From Candidatus Woesearchaeota archaeon (lineage in GTDB: Archaea; Nanobdellota; Nanobdellia; Woesearchaeales; UBA10216), in the NCBI GenBank assembly GCA_016192905.1, contig JACPTG010000001.1, positions 165,005 to 229,004 on the forward strand: a DNA stretch of 64,000 nt, in the 5' to 3' direction. Both the position numbers and the translations under genes were made by a program. The notes beneath the pieces are model-generated. The model had not been told where the DNA came from and ran no database searches. It saw only the letters and a program-made list of their open reading frames with translations. Below, in pieces: positions 22,600 through 38,218 of this stretch. How positions within the stretch are numbered: position 1 is the stretch's first letter; every line of letters begins with the position of its first letter.

Positions 22600-23400
22600 C
22601 TATTTAGAAACTATAAACTTCTCCATCGCACTGACGAAGTCTTGGGCGTCCCTTAGCAATGCGTCATACTGCGCACCTGTGATTTCCTTTACATCCCTGT
22701 AAAGTATCTTTTTCTGAAGGGTATAGAAGTTGCGCATGATTGCAGAGTATTTCCGGTCAAGAAGGCCTTTCTGCACAAGCTGCTTATCCAGCATGTCCGC
22801 CACATGGTCAGGGCTTGGCGGCGTTTCGCCCAGCTTCATCAGGGCTGCGTGGGCGCTGTCTATAACTGACCAGTACAGGTCAAGGGCTGCCTGGAGGATG
22901 TGCCACTTTGAGTTATGTATGGTCTTCGGCGCCCTTGTGAAGTACGTCCAGACACTTTCCGGAGAGGGCCTTATCCTTCCCCTTGCCAGCAAAGCGTGAA
23001 GCGGGTCGAAGAAGCCTGTGTCAAGAAGCGCGACTCCATCACGTATTATGTTTATCCCAACAGGGTCTCCTGCCCTGATGTACTCCCAGAATGTGCTGAG
23101 CTTCAAACTTGTAACGTGCAGCCGGGTGGATGTGCTTCCTATGGTCTTCTCTATTATAATCCTGTAAGTCTGGACTATCTCAGGCGAGAGCTCTACAGTA
23201 ACATCATCTATTATCACCAGCAGGTCTATGTCGCCAGAGCTTTTTCCCTTCCTGGCAACGCTTCCGAAGAGTATTATGGCCTTGAGGAAGGTTCCGAACT
23301 CATCATATATCTTCCTTGAGAAGTCATACGCAAGGCTTATGTCATCCTTGCTGTACTGGCCCAGGTTCGGGTTCTCAATCTGCTGTATTTTGAATTCCAT
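22600..23400 (-). CDS. Nucleotidyltransferase-domain protein
   Basis: Residues 40-60 carry the minimal nucleotidyltransferase signature GSVARKGKSSGDIDLLVIID (GSxxxG...SDxD form, here GDID), which binds the metal and nucleotide. The rest of the 266 residues is a helical domain. Such MNT proteins act as antitoxins with HEPN partners or modify proteins and RNA. No separate HEPN gene is adjacent, but the helical C-terminal domain (about residues 150-265) may play that part. Confidence 0.8.
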   Translation of the reverse strand: MEFKIQQIENPNLGQYSKDDISLAYDFSRKIYDEFGTFLKAIILFGSVARKGKSSGDIDLLVIIDDVTVELSPEIVQTYRIIIEKTIGSTSTRLHVTSLKLSTFWEYIRAGDPVGINIIRDGVALLDTGFFDPLHALLARGRIRPSPESVWTYFTRAPKTIHNSKWHILQAALDLYWSVIDSAHAALMKLGETPPSPDHVADMLDKQLVQKGLLDRKYSAIMRNFYTLQKKILYRDVKEITGAQYDALLRDAQDFVSAMEKFIVSK

Positions 23401-23529: not shown

Positions 23530-24300
23530 TTAATTTGTCACGACCATGTCTTTTAGTTCATCCGAAGTTAAGTTACCCAGGTTCAGGTAGTAATCCGACT
23601 CTCTTATCATGATCGGGGATACTTGTGCCTTATGGCTCACCAGGATAACAGTCTTTCCTAATGATTTAATTTGCCTGCAGGATTCAAGTAAATCCAGGTC
23701 TCCAGAGCAAACAATGGCGCAGTCATAATTATTGAAATGTGCAAAGTTTACTAAGTCCACTGCCAATTGAACATCTGTTCCTTTTTGGATAAATCTTAAA
23801 TCCTTCCTGCTGTATTTTAGAGGTTTGGTTCTTAATTCGAGAAAACTGACATAACCCAAGGAATGAAATAGCTCTGCCTGAGCTTTTTGCCTAAGTTTAG
23901 CCTTTTCCAGTTCCATTGCCAAGTTTTCAACTCTTTCAGGTGAAAAATAATTGCTTCTTTCATGCTGTAGCTCCCTTTTTATTCTTTCCTTTTCAGTATT
24001 AGCGGCTGTGATAAGCTTGGTTTCTAAGTCTTTTATTTTGGCTTCTGCTTTTTTCTGTTGAAAAGGCAATTCATTCAAATGCTTTTTGGCCTGATCAATT
24101 TGGGCATCCGTGTATTCTCCAGTATATAGATAAGCCCGTACAAATTGAGGATTATGGACCTTTATATTAAGCAATTGGACAATCTTGTTAAAAAGACACA
24201 GGTGGAACCTTTCAAAGTTAATATCAATATGATTTTGAAAACAGTTTTTAAGGCTATATCTAAAGTTTTCAAGATCGCAGAAGACCATAAAGCGCATCAT
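23530..24300 (-). CDS. NYN-domain protein with coiled-coil insertion
   Basis: The 256-residue protein begins RFMVFCDLENFRYSL with the first catalytic aspartate of the NYN/PIN-like fold and continues with KGTDVQLAVDLVNFA and CAIVCSGDLDLL, which hold the other acidic residues. Between strands, about residues 75-140 form a Lys/Glu-rich coiled coil not usual for this family. NYN proteins are metal-dependent RNases. The gene is AT-rich relative to its surroundings, which suggests transfer. A second, typical NYN gene lies at 54601. Confidence 0.82.
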   Translation of the reverse strand: MMRFMVFCDLENFRYSLKNCFQNHIDINFERFHLCLFNKIVQLLNIKVHNPQFVRAYLYTGEYTDAQIDQAKKHLNELPFQQKKAEAKIKDLETKLITAANTEKERIKRELQHERSNYFSPERVENLAMELEKAKLRQKAQAELFHSLGYVSFLELRTKPLKYSRKDLRFIQKGTDVQLAVDLVNFAHFNNYDCAIVCSGDLDLLESCRQIKSLGKTVILVSHKAQVSPIMIRESDYYLNLGNLTSDELKDMVVTN

Positions 24301-24473: not shown

Positions 24474-25292
24474 ATGTACTCGCAGGGTTATGGTGGGGTG
24501 GCGTATTTGCCATGTTTTCCGGCTGCCACTTATGGAGGCCTGGCTTATGGCGGCCTGGAAAGCCGCACATACCAGTCTACTGCAACCTTGGCGCCTGAAT
24601 ATTCAGGCTTTCCGCAGATTCCGGATTTCCAGCCCATTCAGCAGCATTTGCCCTACATCACCCTTTCCGCAGCATATGATCAGCCACGGTACAGGCAGGA
24701 GACTGACAGGCCCAACTCACGCACGTCAATCACATACATCCCCCAAACGGTTTTCCTCAAGCCCGGCAGGCCAAGGAGCCAGTTTGTTGACTCTGCCGCG
24801 AGGATTCAGGATTTTGTAGTTGAAGCGTTCAGGCAAACAGCAGGCCACGACTTTCCTGATGACATCGTAATACGGGTGTGCAGCGCTGCTAAGATGCGCA
24901 GCTTTAAGGGCGACTGGCATCCTGGAATACTTGGATTTGCAATCAACCGGCTGGGCTTTGGAGTCAGCGAGATATTCCTTCTGGAGAATGAGCTTGACGT
25001 CCTGATGCTCACAGCCGGGCATGAGATTGGCCATGTAACAACCTTTCCTGCAGGGAACAGGATAGATGAGGAGGCAAAGGCCTTTGCATTTGAGGCTGCC
25101 TGGATGAAGGCCATCTGCCATCAGAACATTGCCGGACTTGGGAAGTCAATTAACTTTGGCGCATTCAGCCCTGCGCAGAACGGGATTCATGACGCAGCCT
25201 TCAATTTCCTAAGGAGGCAGCTATTCCTCGGATGGGCTCCCCTGGAGCTGTTCAGGGGGATTTCTGAAAGGAGAGTGAGCGCGACAGCATAG
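24474..25292 (+). CDS. Putative zinc metallopeptidase (HEIGH motif)
   Basis: The 272-residue protein has a Tyr/Gly/Pro-rich, probably disordered first third and a folded part from about residue 100. Residues 181-190 read AGHEIGHVTT, a zincin-type HExxH, and the run RIDEEAKAFAFEAAW (196-210) contains glutamates placed like the third ligand of gluzincins. There is no signal peptide or membrane helix, so action is in the cytoplasm. The exact family is not recognised. Confidence 0.68.
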   Translation: MYSQGYGGVAYLPCFPAATYGGLAYGGLESRTYQSTATLAPEYSGFPQIPDFQPIQQHLPYITLSAAYDQPRYRQETDRPNSRTSITYIPQTVFLKPGRPRSQFVDSAARIQDFVVEAFRQTAGHDFPDDIVIRVCSAAKMRSFKGDWHPGILGFAINRLGFGVSEIFLLENELDVLMLTAGHEIGHVTTFPAGNRIDEEAKAFAFEAAWMKAICHQNIAGLGKSINFGAFSPAQNGIHDAAFNFLRRQLFLGWAPLELFRGISERRVSATA

Positions 25293-25959: not shown

Positions 25960-26322
25960 CTATTTCCTGATGAAAAGCACGCCAGGCATATTCTCAAATT
26001 CCTTGTCACCGGTTACAAACTTATAGTTTTTATCTCTTGAGAATATGTAGCCAACGCAGTCAAAAATTGAAAGTTCCCTTTTTTTGTTCTGGCTTCGAAA
26101 ATCTATAGCATTCAGAAGGATTGGCATGGGAACATGCGAGCAGAAAGGAATGAATTTATTCACCCAGTATCGTGCCGCGGGGGAAATGTTTTCCCTGAGC
26201 AGCACTCTGTAAAACTCGGTTAAGGTCCATTCTGTAATTGTGAATTCCTCATCAGTAAGCTGGGCGAATTTAGGGTTGGCCAACTGTATTTCCATCAGGG
26301 CATATGTGTCCAGGCACAGCAT
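25960..26322 (-). CDS. PIN-domain toxin (VapC-like)
   Basis: The 120-residue protein starts MLCLDTYALME with the first catalytic aspartate, has the conserved glutamate in TEWTLTEFYR, and ends with SIFDCVGYIFSRDKNYKFVT and GDKEFENM carrying the other acidic residues. PIN toxins cleave RNA, often tRNA or rRNA. Its start codon directly follows the stop of the AbrB-type antitoxin gene. Confidence 0.88.
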   Translation of the reverse strand: MLCLDTYALMEIQLANPKFAQLTDEEFTITEWTLTEFYRVLLRENISPAARYWVNKFIPFCSHVPMPILLNAIDFRSQNKKRELSIFDCVGYIFSRDKNYKFVTGDKEFENMPGVLFIRK

Positions 26323-26541
26323 TTAGTCCGCCTTCAGCTCTTCCCTTACCTCTTTTAGGATCTGCTCAGTGGTTTTGGTCCTCTTTCTTGCCGAGCCCCA
26401 AAGCTCCTTAAGGGGGTTGCCCTTCCGGACAACCTCCACCAATACCTCTTCGCCCTCCTTTATGCTCAGTAACTCCATATCCTTCCGGCTGACAAGCAGC
26501 CCAAAAGAGCCGCCCCACTTCCTGGCTTTTGCAGCAATCAT
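26323..26541 (-). CDS. AbrB-type antitoxin (VapB-like)
   Basis: The 72-residue protein has an N-terminal swapped-hairpin domain (KARKWGGSFGLLVSRKDMEL, then KEGEEVLVEVV) that binds DNA, and a charged helical tail that would wrap the toxin. The ATG at 26541 is preferred to the TTG two codons upstream because AGGTAA is spaced for it. The pair is preceded by an inverted-repeat operator next to the TATA box. Confidence 0.85.
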   Translation of the reverse strand: MIAAKARKWGGSFGLLVSRKDMELLSIKEGEEVLVEVVRKGNPLKELWGSARKRTKTTEQILKEVREELKAD

Positions 26542-26563
26542 CGTCAAATTACCTGTTACAATT

Positions 26564-26609: not shown

Positions 26610-28562
26610 CTACTCCAGCCTGGTCCCTGTCCATAAAACCCAGTGCTCGGGGTCTGGCGCTGCCTCGCCGTAGAGGAAATACGGGGGGGCGGTCTGGCCG
26701 AAGTAGCCCCGCCAGACATCTGACCATGTGTCCCCTGCTGGCCTTGCAAGGCCGTAGATTGAAGAGCCGAAGTGCCTCCAGCCGCCGAGCATGGCCCTGA
26801 AGTCCTGATGCGCCGGCTCCACTATGACGCGGCCTCCTTTAATGTTTTTTACCGCCTCTATGAATTCTTTTATAGGCGCCTTGCCCATCCCAGGGTCTAC
26901 GTGCTCGTCCTCATAGCCGAAGTTGTCTGAAATATGGACTGTGCCTATGATTTTGTCCTTCACGAGCCCCTTAACTTCGTCGAGCAGCCACTGCTTGAAT
27001 GCCGCATCATTCTGCTCTATGCTCTTGGCCGGGTCTCCTATGAAGTATTTCCTCCAAGTCTGGCCGTGGCCGATGTCAAAGGTCGCCCTAATATGCTGCT
27101 CTGCCATCTTCTCAGCATCCTCCTTCCTATAGCCAAAAGCCTTCTCAAGGTCAGTCTGCATCTTATGCCTGGCCTCCACCACAATCTTCCTCAGCTCCCT
27201 TGGATGCGCACCGTAGGTCTCGGGGAATATGTTCTCAGGCGCGACGAATAATGGATCTTTTGTCTTCATCTGCTGCGACTTCTGCATGGCAAAAAGCCCT
27301 GCCCTGGCTATTGTGTCCGCTGTCTTCTTGATAGCATAGTCCTCTATAGGCATTATGTACCTCTGCCTTTCCTCAATATCCCTGGCCTGCTGGGTGTATG
27401 AAAGCTCTGAGAACACCATCCGTTGCAGGTTTCCCTCATACTCTATTTTCTTGTCCTTTAAAATCTGTGACGGCAGCCTTGGGTCGTCAGGGGAAACCAA
27501 GCCTATAAGCTCCCGGTCCATCGGCGGCTGCTGCCTCAGCCTCCAAAGCTCACCCTTTGGAGTCTGCTTTTCAAGCTCCTCGTAAAAAGTCAGGGCCTTC
27601 TTCACCTTTTCAAGCACCTTTTTTATCTCATCCACCCTTTCTATCCCTCCGTAGAACTTGGACAGCGACTTGAACTGCAAACGCTGCATGTCATTCTGCT
27701 CCTTGAAGTACTGCATCTCAGGCTTTATCCGGGCGCCGTTTGGATGCTGCCTGTTGAGTTTCTCAGCCTCCTTTACAAAGTAGTCCCACTCCCTAACAGC
27801 CATCTTGTACCTTACCGAGCCAGGGTTGATAGGGTCTGGCTCGGTTTCAGGTATTTTCTCGCCCTGCTGGTCAAGCAGGTAGCTTCCCTGCGCATCTGTC
27901 TTCCACACAGGAAGCGGGACTGGCTGGTCGGTCCTTATCGGTATTACCTGACCTGTCCGCTGGTCAACAAGGTTGAACACTGCCTTTTTCCTTTCCCCAT
28001 ATTCCCTCCACTTCTCAGGGTCTATCGCCTCTGTAGGGTGCAGCGCGAATTCAGGATAGTTGTCGTAGAGCGGCCTCTGGAACTCGCCTGTGTGAACCAC
28101 AACAGGGCCGCCGTCTGTAACGTCTGCCGCGAAGTCAATCGCCCTCCTTATCTCGTTAAACGCCTGCTCCCTGGCCATCTCATTGAACCCGCCCTCTGTC
28201 AGGCCCGATACATTGCCTATTGCGGGGGTTGCGTGAGTCGAGAGCATTACCTTGTTGATTTTCGCCAGCTCGCGCATGTCCCTTCTCTCCTCAAGGCCGT
28301 ACATTTCAGGAGTTGTAGAACCCTGGCCCATGCTGCCCTTGCCCCTTCCCATGAACCCCAACTCGACTTGCTTTGCGCCCTGCCTGATTTTTGCCTGCAG
28401 CGCCTCAAGCTGGTTTTGCATGGGCGGCGCTGATATTCCAATCTGGCCTGGGCTCAAGCCGAATTCAGGCACAACTTCCAAGGCGTCGCCAACCTGGGCG
28501 TATCCCCTGTCCATCGCGCTGAAGTAACTGCCCTTGTATGCGCTGTTCTCGTAGAATCCCAT
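26610..28562 (-). CDS. Large xylose-isomerase-like TIM-barrel protein (cassette gene 3)
   Basis: The 650-residue protein has scattered motifs of AP endonuclease 2/xylose-isomerase-like TIM barrels: MLSTHATPAIGNVSG (about 105-119), GGPVVVHTGEFQRP, then after a 300-residue mostly helical insertion FDIGHGQTWRKYF, GTVHISDNFG with DEHVDPGMGKAPIKE, and RVIVEPAHQD. These His, Asp and Glu residues would bind two or three metal ions. The usual family length is about 270-300, so the insertion and the Gly/Pro-rich first 60 residues are unusual. It ends a three-gene operon with one-base spacing. Substrate unknown. Confidence 0.75.
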   Translation of the reverse strand: MGFYENSAYKGSYFSAMDRGYAQVGDALEVVPEFGLSPGQIGISAPPMQNQLEALQAKIRQGAKQVELGFMGRGKGSMGQGSTTPEMYGLEERRDMRELAKINKVMLSTHATPAIGNVSGLTEGGFNEMAREQAFNEIRRAIDFAADVTDGGPVVVHTGEFQRPLYDNYPEFALHPTEAIDPEKWREYGERKKAVFNLVDQRTGQVIPIRTDQPVPLPVWKTDAQGSYLLDQQGEKIPETEPDPINPGSVRYKMAVREWDYFVKEAEKLNRQHPNGARIKPEMQYFKEQNDMQRLQFKSLSKFYGGIERVDEIKKVLEKVKKALTFYEELEKQTPKGELWRLRQQPPMDRELIGLVSPDDPRLPSQILKDKKIEYEGNLQRMVFSELSYTQQARDIEERQRYIMPIEDYAIKKTADTIARAGLFAMQKSQQMKTKDPLFVAPENIFPETYGAHPRELRKIVVEARHKMQTDLEKAFGYRKEDAEKMAEQHIRATFDIGHGQTWRKYFIGDPAKSIEQNDAAFKQWLLDEVKGLVKDKIIGTVHISDNFGYEDEHVDPGMGKAPIKEFIEAVKNIKGGRVIVEPAHQDFRAMLGGWRHFGSSIYGLARPAGDTWSDVWRGYFGQTAPPYFLYGEAAPDPEHWVLWTGTRLE

Positions 28563-29162
28563 TTAAGCACGCCTTTTTTTCTCCCTGGTTCCGGTTGTAT
28601 AAAAATCTTGGGTTTTGGCCTCGTGGCCAGGAGTTGCGGTTCTCTGCTCGTAGGTTACCTCTGTCCTGAGCTCAGGCTTCTGGTAGGTTATTGTGTCCTG
28701 CTGTCTTGTCATTGACTCGTATGGTTCTTCTGCCTGCTTCGCCCCGCTGCTCCGGTACGCCTCAATCACCGCCTCCTGCCTTGACTTTTCAACAAGCTCG
28801 CCGTACTGCGCAGACTGCAAGCCTGCCCTGGCTGCACCCTCCACCTGCTCTGACAGCTCCTGCCTCCTTGCCGGCGGCGCCTCCTCTGGCCTTTCCGGAG
28901 CCACGCTTAACCCCCTTTTCGCAGCCCACAGGAGCTTGGCCTCAATTGTCTCCAGGCTTTCAGGGCTGACCGCCTTCATCTGGGGGACAGGAATCTGGAC
29001 TTTTTCCTCCTCCTCCTGAATCGCCTCCTTCTCTGTCTCCCTGAGAAGCTCTTCAGCCTCCTTAAGCTCGCGGCGCTTTTTTTCCTCAAACTCCTTTATT
29101 CTTGCAAGTTTCTGAGAAGGCGTAAGGTTCCTTAACTCCTTTAGCTCATCTTCAAGCGGCAT
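28563..29162 (-). CDS. Charged, mostly disordered protein (cassette gene 2)
   Basis: The 199-residue protein starts with a strongly charged helical stretch (LKELRNLTPSQKLARIKEFE and a Glu/Lys coiled coil to about residue 55) and continues with a low-complexity Pro/Glu/Gln/Thr region. It has no membrane helix or cysteine. Its stop directly precedes the TIM-barrel start. A scaffold or linker between the two large partners is a reasonable guess. No family is recognised. Confidence 0.7.
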   Translation of the reverse strand: MPLEDELKELRNLTPSQKLARIKEFEEKKRRELKEAEELLRETEKEAIQEEEEKVQIPVPQMKAVSPESLETIEAKLLWAAKRGLSVAPERPEEAPPARRQELSEQVEGAARAGLQSAQYGELVEKSRQEAVIEAYRSSGAKQAEEPYESMTRQQDTITYQKPELRTEVTYEQRTATPGHEAKTQDFYTTGTREKKRRA

Positions 29163-29163
29163 A

Positions 29164-30579
29164 TTACCATGTCAGCATGCCATGCATCTTCTTGTAATTT
29201 TTGTAAGTGTTGTAAATCTCTATCTTCAAAGCCTTGGCAGCCCTGTCTATCTCATCCTTCATCTGCACCTTGTCAACAGGCCCCTCCTTTTTCTTCATCT
29301 CCGGAACACCAAGGTCAACAAACTCCTTGGCACCCTCATACAGCGCCTTGAACGGCTCAAACACTGTAGGCTTTGGCCTAGGCTTCGGCTTTGGCGGAGG
29401 CTCAAAAGAAACTCCACCCTCTATGAGATACTGCTTGAACTCTGCGCCCAAGGCCTCAAGGGACTCCCTTATTGACTCGTTTATCATGCTCAGAAGCTGG
29501 ATGTCCTCCTCCTCCCGCATCTTAATGTAGTTCTCTGTGTGCTTCTTATCCCACACATAACCCCGCATCGTCAGGTCGAATTTTCCTGTGTGCATCGGCC
29601 CCCTCTGATAGCCCTCGCCTACGTACTTCATTGATGGCGTTGTCCTGAACTTGAAGTGCAGCAGAATCGTGGGCCAGAATTTCCTGTTCGGCTCCTTCTT
29701 CTGGCACAGAACCTCAATTTCGACCATTGAGCCCTCAAACGCGGCTATCATCTGCTCTGACAGGAGCTTCTTCTGGTCAAGCTGCAGCCTCCTTATGTTT
29801 CTCAGGTATGGCTTTATCCAGCCCATGTAAAGCTTAATGGTCTCGTAATGCTGCCTCAAGTACTTTATTATGAAGTTCCGCCTGGTTTTCAGCTCGCTGT
29901 AAGTCCTCTTCTTCCATTCATAGAACTGGCGCAGCTTTCTCTTCAGGACCTCCTTGACCTTTTCGTTGAATTCAAGCGGCTCAACCGCCATGTCAATCTC
30001 CTCAGGCTCCATCACCCTTATCCTGAAGAACAGGTCTGGAAGTATTGCGAAGCCCACGCTCTGCGCCAGACCGTATACTGAGGCTGCGTTCTTTACCCCG
30101 CCTTCCACCTGGTCTATCCAAATGCCCTTTAAGGTTATCTCAGAGCTAAGCTTGTTCGGCCTGTTCTCGTAGGTGTCATTGTAATATGCCAGACGCTCGT
30201 CTATAATCCTAAGCTCCCTGATTATCTGGAAGAGACTCTTAACCATCTCGCTGATGCCCCTCAGGTATCCTGCAACCTTCTCCTGCTGCGTCGCCAGCCT
30301 CTGCTCTGACACGCCAAAGAACGCTGAGTGCTCAGAGGCTGCAAAGACATCTGTAATCTTTGTGTAATCATTATACCCCCAGTCATACCTGAGGTGGTCT
30401 ATAATCCAGAAGTAGGCTGACTCAACCGGGCTTTGCTCTGTCTCTATTACAAGCCTGTTCCTGAATCTCGGAGCAGGGTATTCTGTGGGCAAAGCCGCAT
30501 AAATAAGGTATTCCTCAGCCTCTTCCTGGGTGAAGCCGTATTTCTCAAGCAGCTTCTTTGCTTCCTCGGCGGATGACAT
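29164..30579 (-). CDS. Large hypothetical protein (cassette gene 1)
   Basis: The 471-residue protein is soluble and mainly helical in the middle (KRKLRQFYEWKKRTYSELKT and following), with an aromatic-rich segment near the N-terminus (SAYFWIIDHLRYDWGYNDYT), a beta-rich part (about 290-345) and a Pro/Lys spacer (PPPKPKPRPKPT) before the last 70 residues. It opens the three-gene operon; a TATA-like ATTAAATAG about 30 bp before the ATG would make the mRNA leaderless. I do not recognise the family. Confidence 0.72.
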   Translation of the reverse strand: MSSAEEAKKLLEKYGFTQEEAEEYLIYAALPTEYPAPRFRNRLVIETEQSPVESAYFWIIDHLRYDWGYNDYTKITDVFAASEHSAFFGVSEQRLATQQEKVAGYLRGISEMVKSLFQIIRELRIIDERLAYYNDTYENRPNKLSSEITLKGIWIDQVEGGVKNAASVYGLAQSVGFAILPDLFFRIRVMEPEEIDMAVEPLEFNEKVKEVLKRKLRQFYEWKKRTYSELKTRRNFIIKYLRQHYETIKLYMGWIKPYLRNIRRLQLDQKKLLSEQMIAAFEGSMVEIEVLCQKKEPNRKFWPTILLHFKFRTTPSMKYVGEGYQRGPMHTGKFDLTMRGYVWDKKHTENYIKMREEEDIQLLSMINESIRESLEALGAEFKQYLIEGGVSFEPPPKPKPRPKPTVFEPFKALYEGAKEFVDLGVPEMKKKEGPVDKVQMKDEIDRAAKALKIEIYNTYKNYKKMHGMLTW

Positions 30580-30608: not shown

Positions 30609-32294
30609 TTAATGTTTCCTATTTGCCCTTGCATGCAGCTCCCTGATGTGGCTTAGCCTTGTGTGGAGGATTTCGCCAAGGTCGCGGAACTTCTCAATAA
30701 GCACAGATGCGTGGTCCCCGCCTATGAAGTGAGGCATTATCACATAGTCAGCACCTGCTGCGTAAAGGGCGAGGGCCTCTGCTGCCTGGTCTGACGTAAC
30801 TATCGCGATTGCCCTCCTGTTCTGCTGCTTCAAGGTTTTAATCAGCATCACGTTTGAACCTGAGTCAGGTATTGTTGAGATGAGCATGCTGACCTGGCCG
30901 AGCTTCAACTTAGCCTGTACTTCCGCCTCGCCAATGTCGCCGTAAATGCAGGGTATCCCCTCCTGGATAAGGCCATCAATTACATCCGGGTCGTGGTCCA
31001 CCACCAAAAAACGCTTTTTCATCTCCCTCAGCTTCCTGCAAATGCTATAGCCTATCCTATTCTGGCCGCATAGTATCACCTCTGGGCTGAATTCCTGCGG
31101 AATATGCTCCATCCGCTGCGCCCCTGAGCTGATTGCGGGCAAAGCATTAAGCAGCCCTGACATTGCCCTGTATATCTGGCTGTGGTGCCTGATAAGGTAT
31201 GATGTGAGCGTGATTGTTATAATCGCCACTATTGATGTTAACGACAACAACTCCGGGGCCAGGTAACCCATGGATACGCCGAGAGCTATCAGTATCAGGG
31301 AGAATTCGCTAATCTGCGCAATTCCTATCCCCGAAATGAAGGACACCTTCCTGTCATATCCAAGAAACTGCAAAATGATGTAGACCACCACCGGGTTGGC
31401 CAGCAGGACAAAGGCTGAAAGCAGAATTGCGTTTTTCAGGAGGAGGCCGCTGGATACAAGGGGTATCTGCACGCCAAGCGACACAAAAAATATTGTAGCA
31501 AAAAAGTCCCTGAGCGACTTTACCCTGCTCACTATCTCAATGCTGTATTCAAGCGATGCAAGGCTTATTCCTGCCAGGAAAGCGCCTATTGCTATGGAGT
31601 ATCCCAGGTAGCTCGCGAAAATAGCGAAGCCAAAACACCATGAAACCGAAGCGAGGAACAGCAGCTCCTGCGACCTCGCTATTGACCTGAACAGCCCAGG
31701 AAGCACAAGCCTTGCGGCAAGGAACGCAGCGCAGAACAATGCCAATCCCTTGATTATCGCGATTGCCGCTGCCTGGACTGAGAGGCCTGTGCTGCTGAGC
31801 AGGGCAAGGGCGAAAATCGCTATAACATCCTGAACCAGCAGAATGCCCACCAGCAGCCTTCCATGAAGCGTGTCCAGCTCCTGCCTGTCTGACAGCAGCT
31901 TGACAACAATCATTGTGCTGCTGAACGAGAGGGCCACTGCAAGATAAACTGACTCAGTGCGGCTGAAGCCGAGGAACATAAGCAGCGCAAAGCCCATTGC
32001 ACTGGTTATGGCCAACTGCGCGGCTCCTGCCACGGCTGCAGGCAGCCCGACGCTCTTCAGCTTTCTCACATCCATCTCCAGGCCAACCAGGAACAGGAGG
32101 AATGCTATGCCAAGCTCGGACAGCCTTGTAACAAGCTGCGTGTCGGTAATCAGGCCTGTCAAAGGACCGAGGATTAGCCCTGCCAGCACGTAGGCAATAA
32201 TCAGCGGCTGCCTCAGGAATGACGCGAGGATTGCAAGGACTGTTGCAGCTATAATCAGCACGCCAATCTGAAGGAAAATGTTTTCTAGAGCCAT
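30609..32294 (-). CDS. Cation:proton antiporter with TrkA-N domain (CPA2/KefB type)
   Basis: The 561-residue protein has about twelve membrane helices of the Na+/H+ exchanger fold (residues 1-385, including LSFSSTMIVVKLLSD) and a C-terminal Rossmann RCK-N/TrkA-N domain (EVILCGQNRIGYSICRKLRE, VVDHDPDVIDGLIQEGIPCI). Such proteins move K+ or Na+ against protons under control of bound NAD(H) or a similar ligand. It overlaps the nnrD-like gene by ten bases, so the two are co-translated. Confidence 0.92.
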   Translation of the reverse strand: MALENIFLQIGVLIIAATVLAILASFLRQPLIIAYVLAGLILGPLTGLITDTQLVTRLSELGIAFLLFLVGLEMDVRKLKSVGLPAAVAGAAQLAITSAMGFALLMFLGFSRTESVYLAVALSFSSTMIVVKLLSDRQELDTLHGRLLVGILLVQDVIAIFALALLSSTGLSVQAAAIAIIKGLALFCAAFLAARLVLPGLFRSIARSQELLFLASVSWCFGFAIFASYLGYSIAIGAFLAGISLASLEYSIEIVSRVKSLRDFFATIFFVSLGVQIPLVSSGLLLKNAILLSAFVLLANPVVVYIILQFLGYDRKVSFISGIGIAQISEFSLILIALGVSMGYLAPELLSLTSIVAIITITLTSYLIRHHSQIYRAMSGLLNALPAISSGAQRMEHIPQEFSPEVILCGQNRIGYSICRKLREMKKRFLVVDHDPDVIDGLIQEGIPCIYGDIGEAEVQAKLKLGQVSMLISTIPDSGSNVMLIKTLKQQNRRAIAIVTSDQAAEALALYAAGADYVIMPHFIGGDHASVLIEKFRDLGEILHTRLSHIRELHARANRKH

Positions 32295-33091
32295 CTTTTC
32301 AACGCGTATGCTATTTTATCTGCAAGGTCTGTGGCCGTGAAGCCATAACCGAATTCCCTGTACAGCAGGTCACCTGCGTATCCATTTATGTAAGCTGCAG
32401 CTGCTGCTGACGTGAGCAAGCTGTTTCCCTGCGCAACAAGGCCTGCGCACAGGCCGGCGAGAACATCCCCTGTCCCTGAAACCGTCATTCCTGCGTTCCC
32501 TGTCCTGTTGTACAGCGTGCTGTTTCTGTTCTGGATGACGTCAACCTTCCCTTTCAGCAGCAAAACATTGCTCCCCAAGTGCTTCTGCACATTGGAGCCT
32601 GCAAGCCTGCTGTTGCGCAGCAGCATTTCATACTCCCTCTTGTGCGGGGTCAAAATGGAATTTTTCGCATCCTGAATCCTTATGGCCTTCAGGGCATCTG
32701 CATCTATCACCATCCTGCACATGCTCCCCTTAATCACCCTGCAGCAGAATTCCTGTGTCTCCCTGTCAAGGCCGACTCCATTGCCGAGCACCATGCAGTC
32801 AAACCTGCTGCTGAGGTTAATCACCTGCCTGGCGTGCTCTTTTGCAAGCCGGCTTCCCCTAAGCTTTACTGTTATGAAATCAGGCCATGCATTAATGGCA
32901 AGGGCTATCTTTTCAGGCGCGGCTATAACAACTGTGTCAACACCGCTCCTGTACGCAGCCATTCCCGCAAGCATAATTGCCCCTGCGTATTCCATGCTTC
33001 CGCCAACAGCCAAAACCCGGCCGTTTTCACCCTTATGGCTCCCAGACCTCCTTTTTTTCAGGCGTATGTCTGAATATGTGATGTACTTCAT
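32285..33091 (-). CDS. nnrD: ADP/ATP-dependent NAD(P)H-hydrate dehydratase
   Basis: The 268-residue protein matches the carbohydrate-kinase-like dehydratase that repairs hydrated NADH and NADPH: HKGENGRVLAVGGSMEYAGA near the N-terminus, LTPHKREYEMLL mid-protein and the signature GNAGMTVSGTGDVLAGLCAG (about 197-216) with the catalytic aspartate of GTGD. The epimerase (NnrE) domain often fused in archaea is absent. It lies between a small AbrB-type gene and an NAD-binding antiporter with overlaps on both sides. Confidence 0.92.
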   Translation of the reverse strand: MKYITYSDIRLKKRRSGSHKGENGRVLAVGGSMEYAGAIMLAGMAAYRSGVDTVVIAAPEKIALAINAWPDFITVKLRGSRLAKEHARQVINLSSRFDCMVLGNGVGLDRETQEFCCRVIKGSMCRMVIDADALKAIRIQDAKNSILTPHKREYEMLLRNSRLAGSNVQKHLGSNVLLLKGKVDVIQNRNSTLYNRTGNAGMTVSGTGDVLAGLCAGLVAQGNSLLTSAAAAAYINGYAGDLLYREFGYGFTATDLADKIAYALKRWL

Positions 33092-34399: not shown

Positions 34400-35860
34400 A
34401 TGAACAAGCGTTTGCTCTGGCATATTTTACTTGCCTGGGCTCTGTTTCACCTGCTGATTCCATTGGCCGCTGCCGCGGTTGATCCCCTCTCACAGGCGCT
34501 TGGCCCATTCGCGGGCTTTAATGTCGGCCAGGTTTATGAGAGGTTCGGAGTATTCCTTGACTTTATCGCATTTGCAGTGCTGTTCATCGGCGCTGCCCAG
34601 GCAGGGCTAAAGGACGTCTTCAAGGAACAGCAAATAGTCCCTGTCATCATCGGCGTAATTCTTGCGGTCGCTGCCTCTGTCTTTGCCAACAGGGCAGGTT
34701 TTAAGCTTGCAGACCTCGGCCCCTATGCGCTTGTTGTTGGCCTGATAATCATCGGCATCGCGGTTTACAGGATGCTCAACGGCATGGGCTTTGGCGGAGT
34801 CAAGGCAGGGGCATGGGCATTTGTGATTGCCTGGGCGCTGTTTTCCGCGCTGATTGACAAGTGGATTCCTGACCAGGGGCTCCTCAGGACTGTGTTCGCG
34901 ATGGGCCACCTGCTTTTCCTGATTGGCTTTGTATTCCTGATTGTAGGTGCCTTCGGGTGGGTGACTGGAGGGCTTGGCGGCGGAGGCGAGGTTCGTGTAG
35001 GCCAGGCTCCTACTGCTGACCAGGCAAGGGCGCAGGAGCAGGAAAGGGCTGCTCAGCAGGCAAGAGAGGAAGCTGTAAGGGGATTGCAGCTTGAGGAACA
35101 CGATTTCGGCCAGCTCCAGGCTGCTGAGGATGCGGGAATTGCAAACCTCGCCGATGCCGCACAATACCTGCAGAGCGCCATTGACCTGATTCGGCATGTG
35201 GTGTCACAGCGCGGCACTGGCCCTGACACCTGGCGACAGATTGGCGAGAGGCTTACCCGGGCAAGGAATGACATCCTGAATGCCATCCGGATAGAAGGCC
35301 AGATACAGGCGACTTATGAGGAAATTGAGCGGATCACGCCTCTAATGACTACAGTTTTTGCAAGGCTTAATAATTTCCGTGACGCCCTTCGCAGGGAATT
35401 GGCGCGTCCATATGCTCCGGCTGGCGCCCCAGACCCATGGGCGGCAATCGGACCCCCTGCAGGAGCTCCTCCTGGAATGACCCCCGCCCAAACAGCCATT
35501 GACAACCGCGTAACTGCCTACATTACAAGTCTCAGGAGGGCTGCATTTGAGCAGATGCAGAGGGTAACCGGGCCTTTGAGGACTGCTGTTCAGCAGGCAA
35601 CAAGCAGCGAAACCGCAGCAAGGAGTGAATTAAACGCAGGCATATCTGCATTGCAGGCAGGAAACCCAAGGGAGGCATTGAGAAGATTCGGAAATTCGCT
35701 TGCAAGCATCAACACCGCAATCCGCAACCTCGGAGCAGCCAGGACGCTGATGAGGAACGAGGCTGCCCTGGACGCGCAGCTGGCGACAATCATTGGAAAC
35801 ACTGCGGCCGGCTCGCCTGACATCGCCAGGCACGCGCTAAACGCAGCCTCAACTCCCTAA
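34400..35860 (+). CDS. Membrane protein with long helical C-terminal domain (tandem paralog 1)
   Basis: The 486-residue protein has a signal-like first helix, then SQALGPFAGFNVGQVYERFG, five or six further membrane helices to about residue 195, a Gly hinge and a long Ala/Gln/Arg-rich helical domain (QARAQEQERAAQQAREEAVR onward). The N-terminal half is homologous to that of the next gene (IGPFSNFNIGGIYDKFG). The C-terminal half is probably cytoplasmic and coiled-coil-like. It starts a two-gene operon. Function unknown. Confidence 0.78.
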   Translation: MNKRLLWHILLAWALFHLLIPLAAAAVDPLSQALGPFAGFNVGQVYERFGVFLDFIAFAVLFIGAAQAGLKDVFKEQQIVPVIIGVILAVAASVFANRAGFKLADLGPYALVVGLIIIGIAVYRMLNGMGFGGVKAGAWAFVIAWALFSALIDKWIPDQGLLRTVFAMGHLLFLIGFVFLIVGAFGWVTGGLGGGGEVRVGQAPTADQARAQEQERAAQQAREEAVRGLQLEEHDFGQLQAAEDAGIANLADAAQYLQSAIDLIRHVVSQRGTGPDTWRQIGERLTRARNDILNAIRIEGQIQATYEEIERITPLMTTVFARLNNFRDALRRELARPYAPAGAPDPWAAIGPPAGAPPGMTPAQTAIDNRVTAYITSLRRAAFEQMQRVTGPLRTAVQQATSSETAARSELNAGISALQAGNPREALRRFGNSLASINTAIRNLGAARTLMRNEAALDAQLATIIGNTAAGSPDIARHALNAASTP

Positions 35861-35869
35861 GGAGACCTT

Positions 35870-38218
35870 ATGGACAGAAAAGCGTCAAAAATTTTTTTCC
35901 ATGCTCTTATCACCCTTGCCCTAGCAGTGCCTGTCCTCGCCCAAGGCCCAGCAGACCTGATAGGCCCTTTCTCAAATTTTAACATCGGGGGGATTTACGA
36001 CAAATTCGGCTTGTTCATTGACTTCCTCCTGTACACGGCCCTGTTTGTCGGCGTCTCAAAGTTTGCCCTGGAAAAGCATTTTGAAAGCACACCCGCAGTC
36101 CCCATCGTCATAGGCCTTGTGCTCGCCATATCCACATCTGTCTTCGCATACAGGGTAGGCTTCAGGATTGTTAACCTCGGGCCCTATGCGCTGCTCGTCG
36201 GCCTTGCCATGCTGATAATTGCAGTCTACCAGATGTTCCGAGGCTTTGGAATCAACATCCCAAACGCAGCCGCCATGGGCTTTGTAATCGGCTGGGCAGT
36301 ATTTTCAGCCGCAGGAGGAACATTCATTGACCAGATTCCAGAGGACAGCCAGCTCCGCACTGTTTTCGCATTCGGCAACATCCTCTGGCTAGTCGGGCTA
36401 ATTTTCCTCCTGATATCCCTCTTCAAGCTGCTCACAGCCGGAGAGGAGCCTCCCAAGCAGGAAGGAGGCGGGGAGACGCAGCAGCAGGCGCGACAGCAAC
36501 AAGCGCAGCAGGCACAGCAGCGGCAAGCACAGGAAGAGCAGGCCCAAAGAGAGCGGGCAAGAGCTGGCGAGCTGGCACAGGATGGTGCACGCCAAGCCGG
36601 GCCACAGGCTCAGCCAGCAACAATGAGGCCCAGAACATTCCCACAGTTCAGGCCAGCTCCAGTCCAATTCCCAATGCCAGGCGGGCCGGGAAGGCCGCTG
36701 AGGATGCCTCCGATAGTCATGCCGTTCTGGGTTGCGCCTGGAACCGCCGGGGCTGCTGGAGGTGCTGCTGCCGGTGGAGGAGCCGGAGGTGGCGGGATTC
36801 CTCCAGGTGGAGCAGGGGCAAGCGGTGGCGGCGGAGGAGCGCCTCCCATTGGTGGAGGTGGTGGCGGAGCGCCTGCAGGCCCGCCCCCTCCGCCGATAGC
36901 TGGCGGAGCATTGCCGACACCTGGATTTTTTGGACGGGTTGGCGGCTGGTTTTCAGGGGCAAAAGCCAAAGTCAAGCCGCCAGCAGCAGCGATATATGGG
37001 GCTGGCAAGAAGGGTGTGGCATGGACTTCCCCAAAGGTTAAGGCTGCATATGCGGCCGCTGCTCCGGCGGTGGCAGCAGGAGCTGCAAAGGCAGGAGCGG
37101 CTGTCAACAGGGCGGCTTCTGGAAAAGTGGCCAACCCTCCCTTTCAGAAGATGCGAAAATATTTCCTCAGGCTTGTTGGCAGCGGAAGGGGCTCACTGGC
37201 TGACCTGGAAGGTTATCTGAGGGGCATATTTGTTCAGGTGGAGAACGTCAGGTCAGAGCCTGATGCTGCAAGGCGGACCGCGCTCGCTTCAGAGCTGGCA
37301 AGCCGCATTGAAAATGACATTGACAGCCGGAATGGCCAAAGCGCCCTTAACAGGGCTTTGGCGCAGGTCACCTTAGTCAGACAGGAGGTTGAGCGAAAGC
37401 CTTTCGAGGATGAAGACAAGGTGAACAGGGTGCGGTGGGCGATGATTCAGGTGGAAAAAGAGCTTAGGAAGGTAAAGGGTGCCCTGACTAACTGCGCTGA
37501 GATGCTGAGGGCAGGCTCATTTGATGAGGCTTCCGAAGAGTGTCAGTTTGCGTTAAGGCAGTCTGAAGATAACCTCCGCGTGGACAGCCCAACTGGCCCG
37601 CTTGCTGTTGTTGCTGCGGAGATTCAGCGCGAGGCTGAAGCCACTCCGCCTTCACCTGTTGCAGAGGCGATTCTTGGCGGATACGCTTACGCGCGGCCAA
37701 GGGTTGAGGAGTTCGTATCCTCTGCACCTGGGAGGGCGGTGGCCTTCGCTGCTGCCGCGCCTGGACGGGTAGGGGAAGCGTGGTCACAGGCTGATGCGCA
37801 GGCGGGGAGGATAATTTACGGCACAGTTTCAGGCTCTGTTAAGGCCTGCATAAGGGAGCTGGACAGGATTTCCGGTTTTTTGAGGGGCTTGCGCAGCGAG
37901 AAAAACCGGGACAAGCGCATCTGGTCGCTTGTTTCAGCAGCACACGACATTGGCCGTTTCATTTCAGGGGATGGCTGCCTGTCCCGCGCTGCCCGGCTTT
38001 TAAATGGAGAGGAGATTGACAAGATAAGACTGGCGGGCTCGCTTGTGAATGGCGCTTACAATGATATCCGGGCAGATGTTCAAACTTCTCCGGAGGCCTG
38101 GTCAAGGATGAGCCACGATGAGAAGAACGCCGGAATTGAAGCTGCGGTGGCAAAGCTCTCGGAAGCCAAGGCTGAGCTCGCCAGGATCTCGGTGCCTGTG
38201 GCTGCCATGACGGCATAG
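35870..38218 (+). CDS. Membrane protein with low-complexity linker (tandem paralog 2)
   Basis: The 782-residue protein has a cleavable-looking signal (ALITLALAVPVLAQ), about six membrane helices to residue 190, a Gln/Ala/Arg coiled coil, a Pro-rich part, then about 70 residues almost entirely Gly, Ala and Pro, and a C-terminal helical domain of about 400 residues with conserved-looking cysteine positions. It begins nine bases after its paralog. The mixed low-complexity regions are typical of proteins that span envelopes or form flexible scaffolds. No family is recognised. Confidence 0.75.
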   Translation: MDRKASKIFFHALITLALAVPVLAQGPADLIGPFSNFNIGGIYDKFGLFIDFLLYTALFVGVSKFALEKHFESTPAVPIVIGLVLAISTSVFAYRVGFRIVNLGPYALLVGLAMLIIAVYQMFRGFGINIPNAAAMGFVIGWAVFSAAGGTFIDQIPEDSQLRTVFAFGNILWLVGLIFLLISLFKLLTAGEEPPKQEGGGETQQQARQQQAQQAQQRQAQEEQAQRERARAGELAQDGARQAGPQAQPATMRPRTFPQFRPAPVQFPMPGGPGRPLRMPPIVMPFWVAPGTAGAAGGAAAGGGAGGGGIPPGGAGASGGGGGAPPIGGGGGGAPAGPPPPPIAGGALPTPGFFGRVGGWFSGAKAKVKPPAAAIYGAGKKGVAWTSPKVKAAYAAAAPAVAAGAAKAGAAVNRAASGKVANPPFQKMRKYFLRLVGSGRGSLADLEGYLRGIFVQVENVRSEPDAARRTALASELASRIENDIDSRNGQSALNRALAQVTLVRQEVERKPFEDEDKVNRVRWAMIQVEKELRKVKGALTNCAEMLRAGSFDEASEECQFALRQSEDNLRVDSPTGPLAVVAAEIQREAEATPPSPVAEAILGGYAYARPRVEEFVSSAPGRAVAFAAAAPGRVGEAWSQADAQAGRIIYGTVSGSVKACIRELDRISGFLRGLRSEKNRDKRIWSLVSAAHDIGRFISGDGCLSRAARLLNGEEIDKIRLAGSLVNGAYNDIRADVQTSPEAWSRMSHDEKNAGIEAAVAKLSEAKAELARISVPVAAMTA

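Follow-up and report, generated by a model that had tools for sequence, protein, structure and literature searches.

The gene for an oversized TIM-barrel protein in the window (the whole 64,000-nucleotide stretch analysed here) belongs to a conserved unit of four genes, HEL-DIS-TIM-NT, which keep their order and strand in more than 30 families of the Nanobdellota, a phylum of mostly symbiotic archaea with tiny genomes. Because this gene set is kept in nearly every sampled genome, including those of only 0.6 Mb, it is probably indispensable. Library searches gave the set no function and HEL no relative, and we regard the unit as a concrete, testable entry to what keeps Nanobdellota cells alive. 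The reading that we favour, tentatively and at somewhat less than an even chance, is that the four genes are a core operon, ancestral to the Nanoarchaeota/Nanobdellota and passed on vertically, and that their products probably assemble into one cytoplasmic complex, in which TIM would be a trinuclear phosphoester hydrolase and NT would act on the same substrate.

The gene unit in the window and across the phylum

Three complete open reading frames on the minus strand make up the tightly packed cluster that the first-pass annotation had described. HEL (29164-30579; 471 aa), the first gene of the conserved unit, is separated by 1 base from DIS (28563-29162), which encodes a charged, low-complexity protein of 199 aa, and DIS adjoins TIM (26610-28562), which encodes a 650-aa metal-site TIM barrel of family PF01261, with a gap of 0 bases. 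All three are real genes, since relatives (with identities of 24-75% for TIM, 41-73% for HEL and 17-56% for DIS) are arranged in this order in many genomes. The first-pass annotation had, however, seen a cassette of three genes with no neighbour that reveals their function. HEL, DIS and TIM do belong together, but a fourth member of the conserved unit, NT (22600-23400, minus strand), which encodes a 266-aa pol-beta-type nucleotidyltransferase, had been missed, and a neighbour that bears on function therefore exists. In this genome ~3.2 kb of inserted genes lie between TIM and NT. Upstream of HEL, the same-strand run extends (30609-33091, minus strand) through a Na+/H+ exchanger plus TrkA-N gene (30609-32294), 29 bp from HEL, and an NAD(P)H-hydrate dehydratase (Carb_kinase) gene (32285-33091) that overlaps the exchanger gene by 10 bp. 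Linkage to the exchanger was seen in 21 of 55 loci within the taxonomic order and in none of the loci outside it; the dehydratase, linked in 17 of 55 loci, is likewise a frequent neighbour within the order only. The association with the other neighbours (TYW3, NFACT-R, YhbY, a methyltransferase and a CARDB-like membrane protein) likewise fails outside the order, and these genes were therefore discounted as functional hints.

HEL was detected in 263 and TIM in 254 of 279 genomes sampled from the whole phylum (Woesearchaeota-type Nanoarchaeota). Far from being rarely linked in relatives, an outcome for which the first-pass annotation had allowed, HEL preceded TIM on the same strand, at most 4 kb upstream, in 57 of the 68 loci with at least 4 kb of context (34 of 41 within the order and 23 of 27 outside it). 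In most lineages NT directly follows TIM on its 3' side: the distance was at most 4 kb in 39 of 62 loci (20 of 22 outside the order) and at most 300 bp in 29. Where it was not adjacent to TIM, it was encoded elsewhere in 24 of 25 such genomes. Several relatives have overlaps of 1-7 bases between genes of the unit, and the inter-gene distances among HEL, TIM and NT correlate (r=0.88-0.90), which supports joint vertical descent. That TIM at first seemed to be missing from two highly reduced genomes, G135 and G279, was an artefact of sensitivity, as PF01261 and a broader profile found a divergent TIM of 686-690 aa with HEL directly before it. HEL, a charged open reading frame and NT were the only phylum-wide neighbours of TIM that we found, and no sugar or DNA-repair gene was persistently linked to it.

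Fold and metal site of the barrel protein

TIM matches Pfam PF01261 (AP_endonuc_2) with 50.5 bits (cut-off 31.1) in two stretches around an insert, and 48 of 49 TIM relatives also match this family. In the AlphaFold model (pLDDT 83.7, pTM 0.80) there are eight barrel strands, which DSSP divides into beta1-beta4 (residues 34-160; 28083-28463, minus strand) and beta5-beta8 (residues 438-601; 26760-27251, minus strand). Between beta4 and beta5 lies an insert of ~277 residues (about 161-437; 27252-28082, minus strand), in keeping with the interruption of about 300 residues noted from the sequence beforehand. The modelled insert consists of a beta-rich part followed by long helices, and it is less conserved than the barrel (mean majority fraction 0.37-0.38 vs 0.54-0.55). 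The C-terminal tail (residues 602-650; 26613-26759, minus strand) is mostly unfolded in the model (pLDDT about 40-55) yet shows barrel-like conservation (mean 0.53), with W644 and E650 at 0.96 and the final Glu nearly invariant in the order. The longest forms of TIM and HEL contained no additional Pfam domain and hence no function-revealing fusion.

By motif and strand position, TIM carries all nine metal-ligand positions of the endonuclease IV trinuclear zinc site. H110 (THA) and H157 (VVHTGE) fall in the first half of the barrel, and E443 (APEN), D496/H499 (DIGH), H543 (HISDN), D552/H554 (DEH) and E582 (VEPAH) in the second. The THA, DIGH, HISDN, DEH and VEPAH motifs had been recognised correctly in the first-pass annotation, which overlooked H157 and E443, and its expectation that the ligands would be grouped holds in the model: all nine lie where strands 3-8 end on their carboxyl side, the metal geometry being judged from strand ends only. 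Equivalence with E. coli endonuclease IV (Nfo) was set by strand positions and motifs, and the Nfo counterparts, in the order of the TIM ligands, we take to be H69, H109, E145, D179, H182, H216, D229, H231 and E261; the hhalign alignments between the barrel and single E. coli sequences were poor or shifted and serve as a weak check only. Endonuclease IV has a three-zinc site (PMC4176340). Among TIM relatives, E443, D496 and H499 are invariant (81 of 81), as is E582 (80 of 80 aligned), and H110 and H157 (each 77 of 81), H543 (76 of 80) and H554 (74 of 80) are less strict. D552 is present in 60 of 80, with His the next most common residue, and one subclade of four members lacks H110, H157 and H543. 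The motifs and the model together indicate the ligands of a trinuclear endonuclease IV-type centre rather than those of a generic barrel.

A Foldseek search with the TIM model ranked 3wqo (MJ1311) best (TMt 0.74 to 3wqo_A), followed by epimerases and endonuclease IV. MJ1311, a D-tagatose 3-epimerase-like protein from Methanocaldococcus jannaschii, is the best solved relative of TIM (profile E 1.8e-9, fold E 1.7e-5) and shares with it a GYDDEHL-x-x-G-x-G motif, with eight of the nine ligand positions visible in alignments; it has 293 residues and lacks TIM's insert and tails, as well as HEL or NT. The authors of its structure reportedly found the nine endonuclease IV ligands conserved and the DNA groove absent. 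Among E. coli proteins, the barrel profile was closest to FrlC (E 2.8e-10), the match to Nfo not being significant (E 0.22), and by sequence profile FrlC and MJ1311 are closer to the barrel than Nfo is. Nfo has the same fold, nine ligand positions and strand positions as TIM but is half its length. The FrlC/D-tagatose 3-epimerase family, whose members use a single metal, has the fold and the E-D-H-E ligands (TIM E443, D496, H543 and E582) in common with TIM, but has no insert and lacks the His residues at beta3 and beta4 that most TIM relatives keep.

HEL, DIS and NT

HEL had been described as a helical protein, but its model mixes helix with strand, comprising five beta strands and two very long helices of 50-60 residues, and the long-helix region is the most conserved (80 of 184 columns at 0.8 or above). 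HEL is a family without known relatives in Pfam, PDB sequences, PDB folds or viral folds: by sequence there was no PDB match and only noise in Pfam, and by fold Foldseek found nothing in the PDB below E 0.03 and no viral match. Scattered coiled-coil and START-like fold matches were set aside as not interpretable at pTM 0.54. DIS carries an N-terminal helix motif, L-x-P-x-E-R-I-x-x-L-K-E-L, and was recognised in 27 of 55 loci of the order; outside the order a different charged open reading frame (144-262 aa) usually takes its position. DIS is the least sequence-conserved member of the unit, recognisable mainly within the order.

The NT residues G46, S47, D57 and D59 (GS and DxD motifs) are invariant in 59 sequences. 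Relatives of NT match PF01909 at 33-37 bits (cut-off 21), and the copy in the window scores 20.7. An invariant H95 stands where an acidic third catalytic carboxylate is expected, and D65/D66 are also conserved. Although the GS and DxD motifs are those of PF01909/PF18765 nucleotidyltransferases of the MntA and aminoglycoside nucleotidyltransferase type, NT forms a distinct, phylum-specific family of ~270 aa with invariant residues of its own (H95, E148, YW176-177 and P197) and no match in the PDB. We rejected NT as the MntA component of an MntA/HEPN type VII toxin-antitoxin system, as the MntA model scored 15.1 bits against a cut-off of 60 and the HEPN R-x4-6-H ribonuclease motif is absent from the conserved residues of the C-terminal half of NT. 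PADLOC defence models gave no match for HEL, DIS or TIM, and NT matched generic nucleotidyltransferase models only.

A proposed function and its alternatives

We propose for TIM a metal-dependent activity at a trinuclear site of the endonuclease IV type, most likely the hydrolysis of phosphoesters. Since the insert emerges from the loop between beta4 and alpha4, on the catalytic side of the barrel, it may shape or gate the active site, and TIM would exemplify how an insertion of 277 residues can remodel the trinuclear active site of a barrel. NT, as a nucleotidyltransferase, would most likely perform the opposite or a consecutive step on the same substrate; the two enzymes might, for instance, shorten and extend the end of an RNA or DNA, nucleotide by nucleotide, or attach a nucleotide to a protein and take it off again. 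HEL is a possible scaffold or substrate-holding subunit and DIS a putative disordered tether. A complex of these products is plausible from the recurrent translational coupling, the correlated distances and the conserved yet apparently unfolded TIM tail; conserved order and correlated distances are not proof of binding. Against the proposal weigh the profile similarity of the barrel, which is greater to epimerases and MJ1311 than to Nfo, the loss of H110, H157 and H543 in the four-member subclade, and the His that NT carries in place of an expected Asp or Glu. A search for transmembrane segments found none (highest 19-residue hydropathy 1.35). More doubtful is the further-reaching claim that the unit encodes an undescribed core machine of Nanobdellota cells. 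Its several subunits would combine nucleotidyl transfer with phosphoester hydrolysis, HEL would supply a new scaffold fold, and the complex would matter to these host-dependent archaea as much as a housekeeping complex does.

Because Nfo is more distant from the barrel in sequence than FrlC and MJ1311 are, a sugar-epimerase-type function has to be weighed, with TIM as a sugar or sugar-phosphate epimerase/isomerase bearing an insert and NT supplying or using an activated nucleotide in a glycan or nucleotide-sugar step. The nearest profile relatives (FrlC, D-tagatose epimerases and MJ1311) fit this, as do the four shared ligands, of which E443, D496 and E582 are never replaced; however, the beta3 and beta4 His residues are missing from FrlC, UlaE and Hyi in the alignments obtained, sugar genes are not among the persistent neighbours and TIM is present in highly reduced genomes, and we consider this function unlikely. 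A role for TIM as the AP endonuclease of the phylum or as a nuclease in DNA repair, with HEL, DIS and NT as repair partners, would account for the full endonuclease IV ligand set, for the fold matches to endonuclease IV structures and for the pol-beta-type transferase next door. We judge it quite improbable: this genome encodes a separate, insert-free, nine-ligand PF01261 protein of 264 aa, the reduced genomes also have a strong PF01261 match that lacks an insert, the barrel profile does not match Nfo significantly and repair genes are not persistently linked.

The four could also be mere conserved neighbours, each a core gene outside any complex or common pathway, as would fit the separation of NT from TIM in roughly half of the loci within the order, the downstream relocation of DIS in a few genomes (L071, L074 and L077) and one genome (G159) that keeps HEL without TIM or NT1. 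Yet order and strand are retained with recurrent overlaps, as they are not for the exchanger, hydratase, TYW3, YhbY and NFACT-R genes, and HEL would fall within 4 kb upstream of TIM in a 1.1-Mb genome with a chance of about 0.2%, which leaves this explanation distinctly unlikely. A mobile or viral cassette is vanishingly improbable. A mobile origin would fit the lack of matches in cellular genomes outside the phylum in a single TIM scan of genome contigs, which gave only Woesearchaeota/Nanoarchaeota-type records, and the one PHROG match to HEL was sub-threshold (E 0.007), but such an origin is effectively refuted by the near-universal presence of the genes, whose distances track each other, by IMG/VR scans with the HEL and TIM profiles that found no relatives, and by the lack of a viral fold match. 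The core operon that we favour was not described in the open-access main texts that we searched, nor in the text passages of Castelle et al. 2021 (PMC8204110). Module 98 of that study comprises 51 families, mostly of unknown function, that are widespread in Woesearchaeota and Pacearchaeota, and the HEL, DIS, TIM and NT genes may be among them.

An ancient operon with a nucleotidyltransferase partner

The first-pass annotation had proposed a three-gene cassette, and all three genes were confirmed in the window as complete minus-strand ORFs at the positions proposed: HEL (29164-30579, -; 471 aa), DIS (28563-29162, -; 199 aa) and the PF01261 barrel protein TIM (26610-28562, -; 650 aa), separated by 1 base (HEL-DIS) and 0 bases (DIS-TIM). 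As a full unit, however, the cassette was incomplete, a gene 3' of TIM (NT) having been missed. When neighbours were clustered across loci, a protein of 270 aa emerged immediately 3' of TIM. Judged by its sequence, it is a nucleotidyltransferase: its relatives match PF01909 at 33-37 bits (cut-off 21; window copy 20.7 bits), and the GS and DxD motifs are invariant. With 'order' and 'phylum' read as Woesearchaeales and Nanoarchaeota/Nanobdellota, NT lies 3' of TIM in 20/22 loci outside the order and 19/40 within it. Where the two are not adjacent, NT is encoded elsewhere in 24 of the 25 tested genomes, nearly all of which also hold a larger NT paralogue of about 580-700 aa. A 715-aa paralogue of this kind, a second nucleotidyltransferase with an apparent second, degenerate NT domain, was seen in genome G000 (C6:88088-88855; L132 727-2874).

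An even sample of 279 genomes across the phylum (220 of them good) yielded HEL in 263 (213 of the good ones) and TIM in 254 (204). Outside the order, 35 genomes, mostly one per family, gave HEL in 35/35 and TIM in 31/35 at E<=1e-8, and three of the four genomes missing TIM at this threshold encode a divergent TIM between HEL and NT (L119-L121). HEL lies on the same strand within 4 kb upstream of TIM in 57 of the 68 loci whose context sufficed (34/41 within the order, 23/27 outside), where about 0.2% is expected by chance. The distance matrices of HEL, TIM and NT correlate pairwise (r 0.88-0.90), which indicates vertical co-inheritance and is by itself no proof of contact. Overall, HEL-DIS-TIM-NT is an ancient operon with a nucleotidyltransferase partner. 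We found no description of it in the literature searched; Castelle et al. 2021 (PMC8204110) report 51 mostly unknown families common to Woesearchaeota and Pacearchaeota (module 98), among which the operon's proteins may be counted.

In the reduced genomes G135 and G279, TIM (690/686 aa) follows a 562-aa HEL after 24 bp, and its sequence shows the nine motifs (IHAP, MHAG, IEESYPG, LDVGH, VHE...DTHL or DVHL, HEPGG). In these genomes SecY and a 60KD_IMP/EMC3-like membrane protein follow HEL-TIM on the same strand (L134 7569-8924, L135 4131-5486). In G135 (0.6 Mb) an in-frame stop splits NT into 135- and 146-aa pieces (L136 6934-7681, -); HEL and TIM are intact. Only one genome, G159 (0.67 Mb), was found to have HEL without TIM or NT.

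Candidate metal site and insert of the TIM barrel

TIM is a new variant within a known superfamily: its PF01261 match falls in two stretches, and 48/49 relatives match the same family. The AlphaFold model (49 homologues; pLDDT 83.7, pTM 0.80) places strands b1-b4 at 41-45, 65-69, 106-110 and 152-157 and b5-b8 at 438-443, 493-496, 539-544 and 579-581; b4 ends at 157 and b5 starts at 438, and the insert therefore spans about 161-437, which the model places on the catalytic face, within the b4-a4 loop. The candidate ligands in the model are H110 (end of b3), H157 (end of b4), E443 (end of b5), D496 and H499 (b6), H543 (b7), D552 and H554 (after b7) and E582 (b8). These nine equal the positions that hold three zinc ions in E. 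coli endonuclease IV (Nfo), whose ligands we take to be H69, H109, E145, D179, H182, H216, D229, H231 and E261, residues that agree with the K-12 sequence. The Nfo site is a three-zinc site (PMC4176340). The barrel carries the complete set of ligands for a trinuclear-type site, and the large insert sits on its catalytic face.

E443, D496 and H499 are the same in all 81 TIM relatives, and E582 shows no replacement; H110 and H157 occur in 77/81, H543 in 76/80 and H554 in 74/80, and position 552 is Asp in 60 and His in 16. A four-member subclade (L066, L073, L077, L082) combines H110->E, H157->W/F/I and H543->Q; by sequence, part of the candidate site would have been lost or altered naturally in this group.

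Foldseek against the PDB, with alignments running through the insert, returned first MJ1311 of Methanocaldococcus jannaschii (3wqo), then D-tagatose/psicose epimerases and endonuclease IV. By sequence profile MJ1311 is also the nearest solved protein to the barrel, which is closer to the epimerase-family protein FrlC (E 2.8e-10) than to Nfo (E 0.22). TIM thus combines endonuclease IV-like ligands with a sequence branch on the epimerase/MJ1311 side.

Proposed roles of the four proteins

We propose that TIM would hydrolyse a phosphoester, that NT would add nucleotides to TIM's substrate or a related one, and that HEL would scaffold and DIS tether. The proteins have no membrane segments, and overlaps between operon genes are recurrent. 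The ligand set would also suit the cell's general AP endonuclease, a role we doubt for TIM because an insert-free PF01261 protein is encoded separately: in the source genome one of 264 aa (L085 1498-2292, -), which has all nine ligand motifs of the endonuclease IV type, and in the reduced genomes a 286-aa match. Because of its sequence branch, TIM may instead be a sugar epimerase.

Of the proposed partners of TIM, NT is a new family of known fold, and HEL has no known relative, none being found in Pfam, the PDB, PDB folds or viral folds. The HEL model (pLDDT 75.4, pTM 0.54) has strands at 39-47, 71-81, 284-293, 302-313 and 332-343 and long helices (88-137, 206-265) that are its most conserved part. 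The DIS profile recognises DIS in 27/55 order loci; in loci beyond the order, the space between HEL and TIM is usually filled by a different charged ORF (144-262 aa), and only 3/19 of these match the profile below E 1e-3, with weak profile-profile similarity. The position of DIS is conserved across the order boundary, and only the N-terminal helix hints at homology. The TIM tail (602-650), mostly unfolded in the model, is conserved at 0.53 vs 0.55 for the barrel (W644 and E650 at 0.96), and could fit a partner-binding segment.

Surroundings in the window

The source genome, a MAG of 1.43 Mb, has its closest named relatives among groundwater Woesearchaeota (TIM identity 64-75%). Here NT (22600-23400, -) is separated from TIM by 3.2 kb. 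A PIN-domain protein (25960-26322, -; sub-threshold Pfam, 19.6 bits) and an AbrB-like small ORF beside it (about 26326-26547, -) are apparently a VapBC-type pair inserted between them. The spacer also holds a NYN-domain ribonuclease-type protein adjoining NT (23530-24300, -; PF01936, 65.6 bits) and a 272-aa protein with a metalloprotease-like HEIGH motif and no Pfam match (24474-25292, +), whose relatives occur near TIM elsewhere (cluster c16: L056, L060, L061, L080). The same-strand run starts upstream of HEL with an NAD(P)H-hydrate dehydratase (32285-33091, -), which overlaps by 10 bp a Na+/H+ exchanger (30609-32294, -) ending 29 bp before HEL. Further out, two tandem proteins of 486 and 782 aa (34400-38218, +) resemble each other in their multi-TM N-termini (L..GPF..FN.G..Y..FG.F.DF) and continue into long C-terminal parts that vary; relatives of the first protein (cluster c14) turn up repeatedly upstream of the cassette.
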